DNA from: a virus
Length of the DNA: 21,024 bases
Direction: 5' to 3' (one strand)
Virus record (IMG/VR): IMGVR_UViG_3300003885_000053
Location: 1-21,024 of that record
Positions within the stretch are counted from its first letter, which is position 1. Every line of letters starts with the position of its first letter. Shown here piece after piece: positions 1,003-5,375 of the stretch. Below the pieces are notes generated by a model. It had not been told where the DNA came from, made no database searches, and saw nothing but the letters and a program-made list of their open reading frames with translations. The position numbers and the translations under genes are program-made.

Positions 1003-1323
1003 ATGAGTGATAAGCCTAGAACATCAAGTAGACGAATGCTCGTAAGAATGGATATTTTAGCTAACGCAAAAACACTGAAGGAATTAGGTGTACCTATAGC
1101 AGTTATACAGCGTGGTCTTGGTGTTGTTATGTCTGGCCTTACTTTTAGCAATCTTCTACATTATTACTCATCCCCAATCATTAACCACCCCGGAAATAAT
1201 TCGCTAAATCCTGAATGGTTAGATAGCGAAGGTGCAGAAATACAAATACCCCCTATCAACTATAAGTATGTAGGAAGGTTCCCCGGAGGTGAATGGGTTA
1301 ATACAGATAATACAGACGAATGA
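1003..1323 (+). CDS. Small protein coupled to the primase-helicase, possibly DNA-binding
   Basis: A 106-residue protein with a basic start (KPRTSSRRMLVR). It continues into a helical stretch, about residues 16-55, in which two helices flank a Gly/Val turn (ELGVPIAVIQRGLGVVMSGL), an arrangement compatible with a helix-turn-helix. The C-terminal half is Pro/Asn-rich and ends in an acidic tail. It is the first gene after the sigma70-like promoter, has an AAGG site 8 bases upstream, and its stop overlaps the primase-helicase start as ATGA, so the two are very likely translated together. A role in origin recognition or loading is an inference from position only; I do not recognise the family. Confidence 0.7.
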   Translation: MSDKPRTSSRRMLVRMDILANAKTLKELGVPIAVIQRGLGVVMSGLTFSNLLHYYSSPIINHPGNNSLNPEWLDSEGAEIQIPPINYKYVGRFPGGEWVNTDNTDE

Positions 1324-3572
1324 AGTCTATACAGCCTTTCATCGACCTAGGGTGGCACACTGTCCCCCTAACAGGTGAGATAGCCAGGTTATCTGACGGT
1401 ACTAAAACCATTCCAGGATTCTGTAAAGGTTGGAAAGAGAAATATACTAATGAAATAAATAAAGTACCTGCTATGTTGGGTGGTGTACTAACCGGTGAAC
1501 TCTCTAATATCATAGCTATTGACTGTGATAATCAAGCAACCTTTGATCTTTTCTATTCACAATGTAAAGAATATAAGTTTATCTTTTTCTCTAGGGATAA
1601 GCCTAAGGGTGGAGGGACTATAATATTCCAGTACCTTAAAGATTTAGCCTTACCTACATTCTCACTACGCGATGGGCTTATAGATATAGATATATTCTCA
1701 AATGATGGGTTTGTTTATTTACCATCTGATAGTAATACCACTAAAGAAGAATGGATAGCTGAGACACATAACGATCTACCATTAGTTAAAGAAATGCCAC
1801 CAAGCATCAAAGTACTGTTAATGTCTTTGTATAAACAATACACACTAACTAAAGATGGCATATCCCCGCTAAAAGAAAATACAGAAGTGGCGCAATCTAT
1901 AAACTATTTAGCTCCTCAAATAGAGATGTTTATAGCTAAAGGGTTCAGTCCTTCACTATTTAGAATAATCACACCAAAAGATTTTAGAAGTTTAGAACAA
2001 TATATTAGAGAAGGTTATTTACACCCTAAAAACATCCCTGACGGTAGAGGTAGTGAGTATCTCTCTAAAGTATCGGCAATATTAGGAGCTGATCAGTCCA
2101 TAAGTACTACTCTGTATTATCAGGCGATTAAAGCAATAAATGAGCTATGGACAATACCGATGGATGCTAAACGCCTTGACGCTACCATAGCTAAGAGGAT
2201 GCTAGAAGGGCAAGTCAAGGTTAATGGAATCAATATCTGGAAGTATGACGAAACTTGGAAGAATAAAGGCTTATCATTTTCGAATAAGCTTGGTGAAGCA
2301 GTAGAGGTATTCTTTGATGATGTACGGCGATTATATTATATGGTTAATCACACTAGAGGAGCCATTAGCTCTTTCTCACGAGATAATGATGTTTTCTCAT
2401 ATATAGAAACAGTAGGGAATAGTAGGATAGCACCTAGAAAAAAGCTAAAAACCTTAATGCCTATGGTTAGGACAGTAAGCAAACCTAACATACCGTTTGG
2501 AGCATACATGCACAACGAATACACTAAGAATTTTAATCTTTTTCAGCAAACACCGGCCTTAGCTATACTCAACAATCCTAAGAATTATAAGGCACACTAT
2601 ATTGAACCTGTAATGATTCTTAACTACTTAGAAAGTCTGATACCTAATAAAGACTCTAGAGATTTCACGTTAAAATTTCTCCGCCATAAATTATTAACAT
2701 TTGATTACAGCCCGATAGTTTTGTATTTTTTAGGTGTGCCGGGATCAGGCAAGGATACATTCATTGAGATTCTATCAGTTATCATGGGATCAAACCACAT
2801 AGCTAAACCTTCAGTTAAGGAGTTTTTGGAACAGTATAACGGTTGGTTAGTCGATAGCTACTTTGTACAACTTGATGAGTATGGTAATCAGCTCGTAAGA
2901 ACAAGTGAGAAGGCAGAAGCTTTAGGTAAGTTATTAGCTTATTCAGGTAAGTCCGAAGTTCAAATAAGGCAAATGAGAACTGACGGTTATCTAACTAAGC
3001 ACTTTGCAACATTTGTGTTAACGGCAAACTCTAACCCTTTAATGGTTACTGAAGACGATAGACGGGTACACTTGATTGAAACCCCTAATAAACTTCAGGA
3101 TCAAGGATGGGTCAAAGAAGCTGGTGGTATAGCTAAGGTACATACAGCTATACTGGAACAGGTTAATGACTTCTGCTATTATTTAGCTACTGAAGTTAGT
3201 ATAATAGCTTCACAAGACTATGTATCTCCTCCTGAGTCATTAGAGAAAAGTAGAGTAATCGCTGAGAAGTTAGGTGCTGGAGCTAAGTTAGTCTACATGC
3301 TCCGTAAGTGTTTATTTAGTGAGATGGAGGAGATAGCTTACGAACATTCAATAGATGAACTGTTTAAAAACTCTGAAATTAGCCAGATAAATGAGTTAGC
3401 TTTGTTCGACCTATATACTGCTATGACAGACGGATTAGGTACTAAAAGAGCATTAAGCAAGTTTATGATGGATGGAGGGTTTGTAAAATTCCCATCTACA
3501 CTTAAAGGTAACAAGACATATGTCTACAAGATACCCTTCCTTTCAAAGTTTAGACCTAATCAATTTACATAG
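1320..3572 (+). CDS. Primase-helicase: Prim-Pol domain plus SF3 helicase
   Basis: A 750-residue replication protein expected to unwind DNA at the fork and make primers. The N terminus looks like an archaeo-eukaryotic Prim-Pol domain: IIAIDCDN gives the D-x-D pair (D68, D70), GGGT follows near 97-100, and IDIDIF (D122/D124) fits the third acidic position. The middle is not recognisable. The C-terminal half is an SF3/P4-type helicase with Walker A GVPGSGKDT (472-480, K478), Walker B FVQLDEYG (D519, E520), sensor TAN (568-570) and the EDDRR segment (578-582). The Walker A Lys is followed by Asp then Thr instead of Thr/Ser directly. The usual His of Prim-Pol motif II appears to be Thr100, so primer synthesis is less certain than helicase activity. 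Start chosen by the ATGA overlap with the upstream gene. Confidence 0.9.
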   Translation: MKSIQPFIDLGWHTVPLTGEIARLSDGTKTIPGFCKGWKEKYTNEINKVPAMLGGVLTGELSNIIAIDCDNQATFDLFYSQCKEYKFIFFSRDKPKGGGTIIFQYLKDLALPTFSLRDGLIDIDIFSNDGFVYLPSDSNTTKEEWIAETHNDLPLVKEMPPSIKVLLMSLYKQYTLTKDGISPLKENTEVAQSINYLAPQIEMFIAKGFSPSLFRIITPKDFRSLEQYIREGYLHPKNIPDGRGSEYLSKVSAILGADQSISTTLYYQAIKAINELWTIPMDAKRLDATIAKRMLEGQVKVNGINIWKYDETWKNKGLSFSNKLGEAVEVFFDDVRRLYYMVNHTRGAISSFSRDNDVFSYIETVGNSRIAPRKKLKTLMPMVRTVSKPNIPFGAYMHNEYTKNFNLFQQTPALAILNNPKNYKAHYIEPVMILNYLESLIPNKDSRDFTLKFLRHKLLTFDYSPIVLYFLGVPGSGKDTFIEILSVIMGSNHIAKPSVKEFLEQYNGWLVDSYFVQLDEYGNQLVRTSEKAEALGKLLAYSGKSEVQIRQMRTDGYLTKHFATFVLTANSNPLMVTEDDRRVHLIETPNKLQDQGWVKEAGGIAKVHTAILEQVNDFCYYLATEVSIIASQDYVSPPESLEKSRVIAEKLGAGAKLVYMLRKCLFSEMEEIAYEHSIDELFKNSEISQINELALFDLYTAMTDGLGTKRALSKFMMDGGFVKFPSTLKGNKTYVYKIPFLSKFRPNQFT

Positions 3573-3581
3573 GAGAAAATA

Positions 3582-3779
3582 ATGTATAATAAGCCACAAA
3601 ATACAATGAGTCCAATTTGTAAACACAAATTCACACCTTATCAAAGAAGGAAATTTACGAAAAGTCCCGATGATCAAGGTCAGATAGTTAAACAATGTGT
3701 AAATTGCGGAAAAGTTACTTATGCAGACAAAGATACAATAGATATTGTACAAGCAGTAATTAATAAAAAGGAAAGCTAA
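3582..3779 (+). CDS. Small zinc-ribbon protein
   Basis: A 65-residue basic protein with C13-x-H15 in the first half and a C-x-x-C-G knuckle (CVNCGK) at about residues 39-44, a spacing that fits one zinc site. An AGGAG ribosome binding site 7 bases before the ATG supports this start, just after the primase-helicase stop. The protein is Lys/Arg-rich and could bind nucleic acid, but no specific family is recognised. Its TAA stop overlaps the next ATG (TAATG), which suggests translational coupling. Confidence 0.75.
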   Translation: MYNKPQNTMSPICKHKFTPYQRRKFTKSPDDQGQIVKQCVNCGKVTYADKDTIDIVQAVINKKES

Positions 3780-4054
3780 TGTATATAGAACCACTAAATA
3801 TAATAATAATATTAGGCACTTTATTAGGCGTTATAGTCTTTCAATTTTATAGGGAGTTTAAAACAATTAAAGGTCACAAAGATAGGATAAAGTGGTTAAC
3901 TATAAATTCAGTAGCTGACCAAAAACACACTTCTGTATTTGTTAAGTCTTTAATAGCTCATCAATCTAAGCTCGCTCTAGTAAAAGGAACTTTAAGAGAA
4001 GGGTTAAAGATATTAGAGACAGATAATAAGAGTACTAAAGAAGAAAGGAAGTAA
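3779..4054 (+). CDS. One-pass membrane protein, unknown role
   Basis: A 91-residue protein with one strongly hydrophobic segment at about residues 6-23 (Ile/Leu/Gly/Val-rich) followed by a charged, helical C-terminal part, and few charges before the segment. This looks like an N-in or N-out membrane anchor with a soluble tail of about 65 residues. It starts inside the previous stop (TAATG) and is followed by another small membrane protein. The arrangement resembles spanin or superinfection-exclusion proteins, but there is no lysis gene beside it and the block is a replication block, so I make no functional call. Confidence 0.65.
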   Translation: MYIEPLNIIIILGTLLGVIVFQFYREFKTIKGHKDRIKWLTINSVADQKHTSVFVKSLIAHQSKLALVKGTLREGLKILETDNKSTKEERK

Positions 4055-4057
4055 TAA

Positions 4058-4207
4058 ATGAAATATCTAACAGTTTTTAATGTTTTAGTGGGTGGCTCAA
4101 TACTATTGATAAGTGCACTACTCTTATTTGCCTACAGATATGAAGAAAAGCAAAGGCTTATTATTGCGGCATCAAGAATAAAGTTAAGAACTAAAAGAAA
4201 AGAATAA
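4058..4207 (+). CDS. 49-aa one-pass membrane protein
   Basis: ATG 4058 to TAA 4205-4207, three bases after the preceding stop. The protein has a hydrophobic stretch at about residues 5-26 (VFNVLVGGSILLISALLLF) and then a highly basic tail rich in Lys and Arg, predicting a single membrane helix with a positively charged cytoplasmic tail. Together with the upstream 91-residue protein it forms a two-gene membrane pair. The short length and charge fit small phage membrane modulators or holin-like peptides; neither can be decided from sequence. Confidence 0.6.
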   Translation: MKYLTVFNVLVGGSILLISALLLFAYRYEEKQRLIIAASRIKLRTKRKE

Positions 4208-4224
4208 AGTCAAGGACTAAAAGA

Positions 4225-4261
4225 AGAGGTTGGTAATAGCAAATGAAATGTGCGCACCTCT
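4225..4261 (+). promoter_or_regulatory. Hairpin that could mask a ribosome binding site
   Basis: agaggt (4225-4230), which looks like a Shine-Dalgarno, is complementary to acctct (4256-4261), with a 25-base loop. The loop holds the 3' part of a six-codon reading frame, ATG 4243 to TAA 4261-4263 (MKCAHL), and an 8-base palindrome gtgcgcac. The next gene (ATG 4273) has no Shine-Dalgarno of its own, so translation by reinitiation or release of this hairpin is possible. Confidence 0.3.
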
Positions 4262-4272
4262 AAGTATTATCT

Positions 4273-4647
4273 ATGAATAAACTAAGTATACTATTAGCTA
4301 ATGAAGTAGCAATCTTAAAGTATCATAAGCACTTAGAACTTCCATACCATCAAGTCACAATAACTAACTACGATGGCTCAGTTAATAAATATAAATTTCT
4401 TAGTTATAATATTGCAATTACTTTTATGTCGGTAAACTATAGGGAGCTTGTTAGAACTAATAGTCTAAGAAATTTAGAGCTGCCTATAATTGTGAATAAG
4501 TTTTTAGTTAAAAACAAAATAACGTCAATGTCAGAACTGTTAGAAATAACTAAGAAGCAATGGTTAAGTCAACCAAGTATAGGAGCAGTTACAGTAGATA
4601 GACTAATAGAAGAATTAGCTAAACATGGTTGTTACTTAAAAAGGTAG
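4273..4647 (+). CDS. Protein with RNA polymerase alpha C-terminal-domain-like fold
   Basis: A 124-residue protein. Residues 70-124 can be aligned without a gap to the bacterial RNA polymerase alpha-CTD, a helix-hairpin-helix domain that contacts promoter UP elements and activators. Matching positions include L70, L78, I83, L89, T93, L98, P101, G104, L114, A116 and G119 (for example SELLEITKKQWLSQPSIG against the host GDLVQ-TE-LLKTPNLG pattern). The residues that contact DNA in E. coli alpha (R265, N268, K298) correspond here to I73, K76 and V106, so it may keep the fold but lose or change DNA binding. The N-terminal 69 residues are unrecognised. Inference: it may bind host RNA polymerase or its partners. 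The start lacks a good ribosome binding site (see the hairpin just upstream). Confidence 0.7.
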   Translation: MNKLSILLANEVAILKYHKHLELPYHQVTITNYDGSVNKYKFLSYNIAITFMSVNYRELVRTNSLRNLELPIIVNKFLVKNKITSMSELLEITKKQWLSQPSIGAVTVDRLIEELAKHGCYLKR

Positions 4648-4654
4648 GTAAATT

Positions 4655-5035
4655 ATGAAAGATATTAAATTTAGATGTTTTGATTTTGAAAGTGGGGAAA
4701 TGTGTATAGTTACTCAAATAAGACTACCTAACAAAGGTAAGCACGGTGACAATATTACTGGTATTGTTACTATGCAATACACAGGTAGAAAAGATACCAC
4801 ACATACTGAAATATATGAAGGGGATATCTTAAGAACAGAGGTATTAGTAAATGTAAAAGAAACCAACACTAAAAAGCTAAAGTCTGTATATGGTACAGTT
4901 GAATACTGTGAAGATAAGGCAGCTTATTTATTTATATGCCAGGACTATGAGGTATTACTTTCATCATTCCCTAGTAAGGATTTACTTGTTTTTGGGAACA
5001 AATATGAAAATTCAGAGCTATTGAGTGAAGTATGA
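4655..5035 (+). CDS. YopX-family phage protein
   Basis: A 126-residue protein with the YopX family layout: it opens with MKDIKFRCFDFESGEM, has the MQYTGRKD segment followed by EIYEGDIL (about residues 40-60), a beta-rich middle, and the typical ending with VFGNKYENSELL. The family is common in phages and prophages; its biochemical role is not established. An AGGTAGG-like site just upstream of ATG 4655 supports the start. The stop TGA overlaps a possible downstream start as ATGA. Confidence 0.85.
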   Translation: MKDIKFRCFDFESGEMCIVTQIRLPNKGKHGDNITGIVTMQYTGRKDTTHTEIYEGDILRTEVLVNVKETNTKKLKSVYGTVEYCEDKAAYLFICQDYEVLLSSFPSKDLLVFGNKYENSELLSEV

Positions 5036-5133
5036 ATTACTTAACTAAGCTACGGTATAGTATTTTCTGTAATCCTTTAAGAGGGGCGATATATAAAGGT
5101 ACTTCACGATTCACGCAGAAGAATTATAGATAA
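5032..5133 (+). CDS. Possible 33-aa reading frame overlapping the next frame
   Basis: ATG 5032 overlaps the YopX-like stop (ATGA) and the frame closes at TAA 5131-5133, giving a short basic peptide. Its second half shares bases with a different frame (5093-5215) that looks more protein-like. It is either a coupled small peptide or the 5' part of a gene whose 3' part has shifted by one base. Little else can be said. Confidence 0.3.
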   Translation: MNYLTKLRYSIFCNPLRGAIYKGTSRFTQKNYR

Positions 5134-5215
5134 GCATAGGTATGCTATTCATGTCAAGAAATGTAATAAGTGTGGCAAGTATTTCACAGAAGCAGGATAC
5201 GAATATGAAAATTAA
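5093..5215 (+). CDS. Small zinc-finger protein with apparent AUA start (or frameshifted gene)
   Basis: No ATG, GTG or TTG opens this frame, yet it reads as a convincing small protein of 40 residues: a basic segment KVLHDSRRRIIDKHRY, then C-x-x-C knuckle VKKCNKCGKYF, then an acidic Tyr-rich tail. An AGAGGGG ribosome binding site at 5080-5086 lies 6 bases before the codon ATA at 5093, ideal spacing for a start. The stop overlaps the next gene's ATG region, as is usual in this block. Three readings fit: a genuine AUA start; an ATG mutated to ATA or misread; or a +1 shift from the frame starting at 5032. The protein is recognised only as a short Cys-x-x-Cys type. Confidence 0.5.
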   Translation: MKVLHDSRRRIIDKHRYAIHVKKCNKCGKYFTEAGYEYEN

Positions 5216-5375
5216 TTTAGAGTGTTCTTGTGGTAATAAAGATCAGTTAAGAACTATTGATGAAGGAGTGTATAATAAACCAGAAACAAAAGGTAAACCA
5301 ATCTATATATTCATTGAAAGAATGGATGAGATTAAAATAAAATGTTTAGCTTGTAATAAAGAAAGTGTTTTATAA
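5205..5375 (+). CDS. Small zinc-ribbon protein (56 aa)
   Basis: I choose ATG 5205, which has an AGGA site about 8 bases upstream, over the ATG at 5142, which has no site and would add 21 residues translated from the zinc-finger frame above. The 56-residue protein opens with MKINLECSCGN and closes with CLACNKESVL: C-x-C-G near the N terminus and C-x-x-C near the C terminus make a four-Cys zinc ribbon. A small acidic and basic middle lies between. Function unknown; it overlaps the end of the preceding zinc-finger frame and precedes the ssDNA-binding protein. Confidence 0.7.
   Translation: MKINLECSCGNKDQLRTIDEGVYNKPETKGKPIYIFIERMDEIKIKCLACNKESVL

Follow-up and report, generated by a model that had tools for sequence, protein, structure and literature searches.

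A small phage protein with a probable, strongly diverged alpha-CTD-type domain and altered DNA-contact positions

Alpha-CTD domains in RpoA and in viral proteins

The alpha-CTD of bacterial RNA polymerase contacts the minor groove of DNA through R265 and neighboring residues. In E. coli we take the domain to comprise residues 249-329 of RpoA (PDB 1COO and 1LB2). Phage T4 provides a route by which this DNA contact is neutralized: its enzymes Alt and ModA modify the host alpha subunit by ADP-ribosylation of Arg265 (PMC2988021).

A free-standing alpha-CTD in a phage is not unusual in itself, because many viral contigs encode such proteins. In a profile scan of viral contigs, not all of which may be phage, we detected alpha-CTD domains at 30 loci. 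Their ORFs encode 98-371 aa, and the rest of RpoA is missing from them. Bacillus phage vB_BmeM-Goe8 (NC_048797) has a 210-aa protein annotated as 'RNA polymerase subunit alpha', again without the rest of RpoA.

The stretch of DNA analyzed here, which we call the window, is the 21,024-base virus record IMGVR_UViG_3300003885_000053, a fragment from an uncultured phage. An earlier note on this DNA had proposed that one of its small proteins, which we call P0001, adopts the alpha-CTD fold with altered positions of DNA contact. P0001 shares with the alpha-CTD of bacterial RpoA (PF03118) the core hydrophobic residues, the P-x-I/L-G turn and the C-terminal G..L, and it differs from RpoA in being without the alpha N-terminal domain, as do the free-standing viral members. 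Those viral proteins (such as L056, L058, L062, L064, L065, L068, L070, L075 and L078 in our scan) are small, and in most of them the domain sits at the C-terminal end or close to it. The architecture of a short N-terminal region and a C-terminal alpha-CTD is common to P0001 and many of them. On the cellular profile these contig proteins reach 39-91 bits, and all retain R265 except for one with K; P0001 reaches 13 bits and has isoleucine at this position. P0001 exhibits no enzyme domain; any likeness to Alt and ModA is one of strategy only.

The phage and the P0001 gene

Judged by its primase and DNA polymerase, the phage groups with Kafunavirus KF-1, Vibrio phage VPMS1, Pseudoalteromonas phage PH1 and Dickeya phage Amaethon. 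P0001 lies in a neighborhood of replication genes that includes the primase, SSB and the DNA polymerase, and its strand and spacing are as in the neighboring genes (Table 1). In the related phages the gene directly after the primase, or one a few genes further on, is either a Dda-like helicase or an ORF of similar size without a name; a search of the window for the KF-1 Dda helicase found nothing related. Here this slot, at 3582-5375, contains five or six small AT-rich ORFs, including the YopX family protein, and has a G+C content of about 30%, compared with 34-38% around it. A T7-type RNA polymerase, the one polymerase type looked for (PF00940), was not found in 18 records of the phage group, while the T7 positive control was detected. 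The phage group therefore probably depends on the host RNA polymerase.

Table 1. Positions of P0001, its parts and features around it in the window
Feature	Position	Strand	Remarks
Primase/helicase, Kafunavirus-like group	1320..3572	+	45-48% identity to KF-1, VPMS1, PH1, Amaethon
Predicted RNA hairpin AGAGGT...ACCTCT	4225..4261	+	Spans the mini-ORF and its AAGAGG
Possible leader mini-ORF MKCAHL*	4243..4263	+	Read from sequence; ends 9 nt 5' of the P0001 start
P0001 ORF	4273..4647	+	124 aa, ATG start, TAG stop
P0001 N-terminal region, residues 1-62	4273..4458	+	
P0001 alpha-CTD-like / helix-hairpin-helix-like domain, residues 65-123	4465..4641	+	
YopX family protein (PF09643)	4655..5035	+	Next gene after P0001; E 2e-15

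An in-frame stop codon at 4261-4263 lies just upstream of the ORF, and because this closes the frame the start is placed at 4273 among ATG, GTG and TTG starts. The codon score is slightly positive in this frame (0.035 bits per codon), the highest of the six. Residues 1-62 matched none of the families of Pfam, PHROGs and NCBIfam, and a poor, low-confidence model has this region as a helix, a beta hairpin and a second helix.

No Shine-Dalgarno sequence is evident for P0001 itself, in contrast to most of the neighboring genes. Upstream there is a possible leader mini-ORF, with the sequence AAGAGG at 4224-4229 on its 5' side, and a predicted hairpin in the RNA with an energy of -9.4 kcal/mol over 4220-4290 (ViennaRNA, without shuffle control). 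Taken with the missing Shine-Dalgarno, the mini-ORF and hairpin suggest translational coupling or control.

Elsewhere in the window, a 347-aa ORF at 10299-11342 matches ORFs of 91-212 aa in related phages by its C-terminal 80 residues (DUF6378). It has a long N-terminal extension that is not seen in the relatives' DUF6378 ORFs.

Resemblance of the C-terminal half to alpha-CTD

Residues 65-123 of P0001 align with residues 257-315 of E. coli RpoA, with about 25% identity over 59 residues. The absence of gaps stated in the earlier note is borne out over these 59 columns, with a constant offset of +192. All the core positions it listed as kept are indeed kept with the exception of L114; residue 114 is glutamate, and the core leucine is L115, corresponding to E. 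coli L307. The core pattern of hydrophobic and glycine residues is present: L14, L22, L33, G48, L59, G63 and L66, numbered as in the E. coli fragment, are identical in P0001 and four RpoA sequences.

The DNA contacts are changed as the note had described, R265, N268 and K298 becoming I73, K76 and V106, respectively. In addition E302 is replaced by R110. Of the complete 265 determinant for DNA binding (R265, N268, G296, K298, S299 and E302) only G296 is retained, as G104, with S299 becoming T107. Position 265 is arginine in 25 of 26 reference alpha-CTDs and lysine in the remaining one, and P0001 therefore stands out. Its domain is basic, with a charge of +3.8 compared with +0.8 for that of E. 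coli.

The resemblance was measured in several ways. In an unprompted scan the top model among 18,950 in NCBIfam was RpoA (NF003519), with E 0.009 over P0001 residues 61-123. An HMM was constructed without P0001 from 26 alpha-CTDs, comprising four cellular domains, among them those of B. subtilis, T. thermophilus and M. tuberculosis, and 22 viral domains whose discovery did not involve P0001. On this model P0001 scored 15.1 bits (E 0.005) and came first of 6,494 ORFs, which were taken from the window and 46 related phage loci; the next ORF had E 0.63. None of 20,000 shuffled sequences reached this score (maximum 12.5). When the HMM was made from the four cellular RpoA sequences only, P0001 was again ranked first of the 6,494 ORFs (13.0 bits, E 0.026), and one shuffle in 20,000 scored higher.

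In a profile comparison of the kind that the note had suggested, hhalign matched P0001 to alpha-CTD with a probability of 90.6% across 59 gapless columns, compared with 0.1-18.6% for eight shuffles and the reversed sequence. In the reverse direction, a search with P0001 as query placed 11 of 29 alpha-CTD ORFs within the top 20 of 9,164 distinct ORFs, with unchanged register. For 58 shuffles the corresponding number was two or fewer, and for ten other small proteins of the window one or none. The counts are not independent events, because the alpha-CTD ORFs are mutually related. The reciprocal test excluded one ORF, from an Acinetobacter plasmid, that had E 0.0006 in a small set, because its selection had relied on P0001 itself.

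The signal is specific, but membership of the alpha-CTD fold class is probable rather than proven, because the absolute score is low, P0001 goes unreported by the Pfam family for alpha-CTD with E-values allowed up to 10 (PF03118, curated cut-off 23.8 bits), there are weak matches to HHH_9 and HHH_5, and the background in the PDB is comparable. A PDB search with the P0001 fragment returned one RpoA, at E 0.72, outranked by V-ATPase subunit F and internalin B; HhH proteins other than alpha-CTD were absent from these matches, and were not prominent in the best 60 PDB matches of the alpha-CTD profile.

Single-sequence AlphaFold models of P0001 had a pLDDT of 41.5 overall and 60.6 for residues 62-124, with pTM about 0.3. 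In this low-confidence model the predicted helices at 66-80, 86-99 and 108-117 fit the helix positions of alpha-CTD. Foldseek searches with the low-confidence models returned no match, which at such confidence is evidence neither way. The sequence statistics support the alpha-CTD-like domain of the note and its loss of the 265 determinant; models of this confidence do not confirm the fold itself.

No homologue of P0001 was found in viral contigs, genome contigs, phages, plasmids or 42 related records, and a set of 39 related viral contigs likewise lacked a relative. The note had proposed a search for homologues in phages with the same neighbors, and none emerged among the related records. A degenerate DNA pattern for W-L..P.IG..TV matched 20 contigs, with no convincing relative among them, and a second such pattern matched zero contigs. 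Two further matches were judged to arise by chance, one in VPMS1 (E 0.01), which has an internal stop, and one in the Acinetobacter plasmid (E 10), which lies inside a long ORF.

Alternative explanations and possible role

P0001 is probably a diverged, free-standing protein of the alpha-CTD/HhH type. Its C-terminal half would be a strongly diverged alpha-CTD-type HhH domain fused to the short N-terminal region. Because R265, N268, K298 and E302 are gone, and from the established biochemistry of alpha-CTD, it most likely does not bind UP elements in the manner of alpha-CTD. We give about even odds to this reading of P0001 as a whole, as a small accessory protein of the phage. Its most likely mode of action would be that of a compact basic adaptor, which might dock on a surface of some protein in the host's transcription machinery or, through its lysines, bind the DNA backbone, and which may act during the replication phase.

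A rather unlikely alternative is that P0001 contains a generic HhH domain that does not descend from alpha-CTD, in a small accessory protein that would bind the DNA backbone near replication. The same residues are matched by HHH_9 (PF17674; E 0.076, 14.3 bits, below its curated cut-off of 23.1), by HHH_5 (PF14520; E 0.12, 13.3 bits, below its cut-off of 27) and by the HhH part of a family of NAD-dependent ligases in PHROGs (E 0.1). These belong to the same general fold class, and both the basic character of the domain and the adjoining replication genes would be in keeping with such a protein. However, NCBIfam ranks RpoA first, with better statistics than HHH_5 and HHH_9, and the match extends beyond the hairpin through the 'G..L' at 119-122 as in alpha-CTD, a C-terminal extension that the HHH_5 and HHH_9 matches do not include. 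The reverse search too retrieves alpha-CTD ORFs, its controls being shuffles and other small proteins of the window.

We think it unlikely that the resemblance is due to chance, with the leucine spacing and P-x-I-G motif of an unrelated small helical protein imitating alpha-CTD. The low identity, modest E-values of 0.005-0.03 and a lack of fold support would be consistent with this, and P0001 is one of many unannotated ORFs that were read, so that the search was selective. Moreover, the highest non-RpoA score in the PDB with the alpha-CTD profile was 14.9 bits over 177,635 sequences, about as high as that of P0001 on a near-identical profile. Against this, the shuffle, reciprocal and hhalign controls agree, and the alignment is gapless and in a single register across independent models.

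Returning to the basic adaptor, a dominant-negative alpha-CTD decoy would be one special case of its mode of action, and is a minority reading of P0001. It is improbable that P0001 mimics alpha-CTD in the sense of the note, which thought of redirecting host RNA polymerase or blocking activators, by occupying activators, sigma or the alpha-CTD site on the host RNA polymerase to shut down or redirect host transcription; loss of the DNA-contact residues from an otherwise conserved core is the pattern that a non-DNA-binding decoy would give, E261 of the sigma-facing 261 determinant aligns with P0001 E69, the phage group is likely to depend on the host polymerase, and phages do target Arg265 of alpha, as with T4 Alt and ModA (PMC2988021), but the 287 determinant is lost (E286 and V287 become K94 and K95), D259 becomes N67, and the residue changes fit plain divergence equally well. 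The specific proposal that such a decoy, retaining the fold without the DNA determinant, engages sigma region 4 or activators and thereby switches off activated host transcription is very improbable; by analogy its strategy would parallel the T4 modification of Arg265. The literature searched contained no account of alpha-CTD mimicry by phages.

If a decoy of this kind were true, phages would have alpha-CTD-like domains from which DNA binding has been removed, and the protein-protein roles of alpha-CTD could be separated from its role on DNA. More modestly, viral contigs repeatedly encode free-standing proteins with an alpha-CTD domain, and the PHROGs families that they match leave them unnamed, none being identified as alpha-CTD. 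One of these families, phrog_1660, carries the name 'PmgS-like head morphogenesis'. Four of the 18 domains compared with it match, with E 9e-5 at best, and because of these matches its label may hide an alpha-CTD domain.

The viral proteins found in the scan also differ in their construction. One kind has two copies, with a tandem pair of alpha-CTD domains in L060 at 2623-3312. In L049, L066, L072 and L076 an apparent sigma-factor or HTH-like region, judged by eye, is joined to a C-terminal alpha-CTD.
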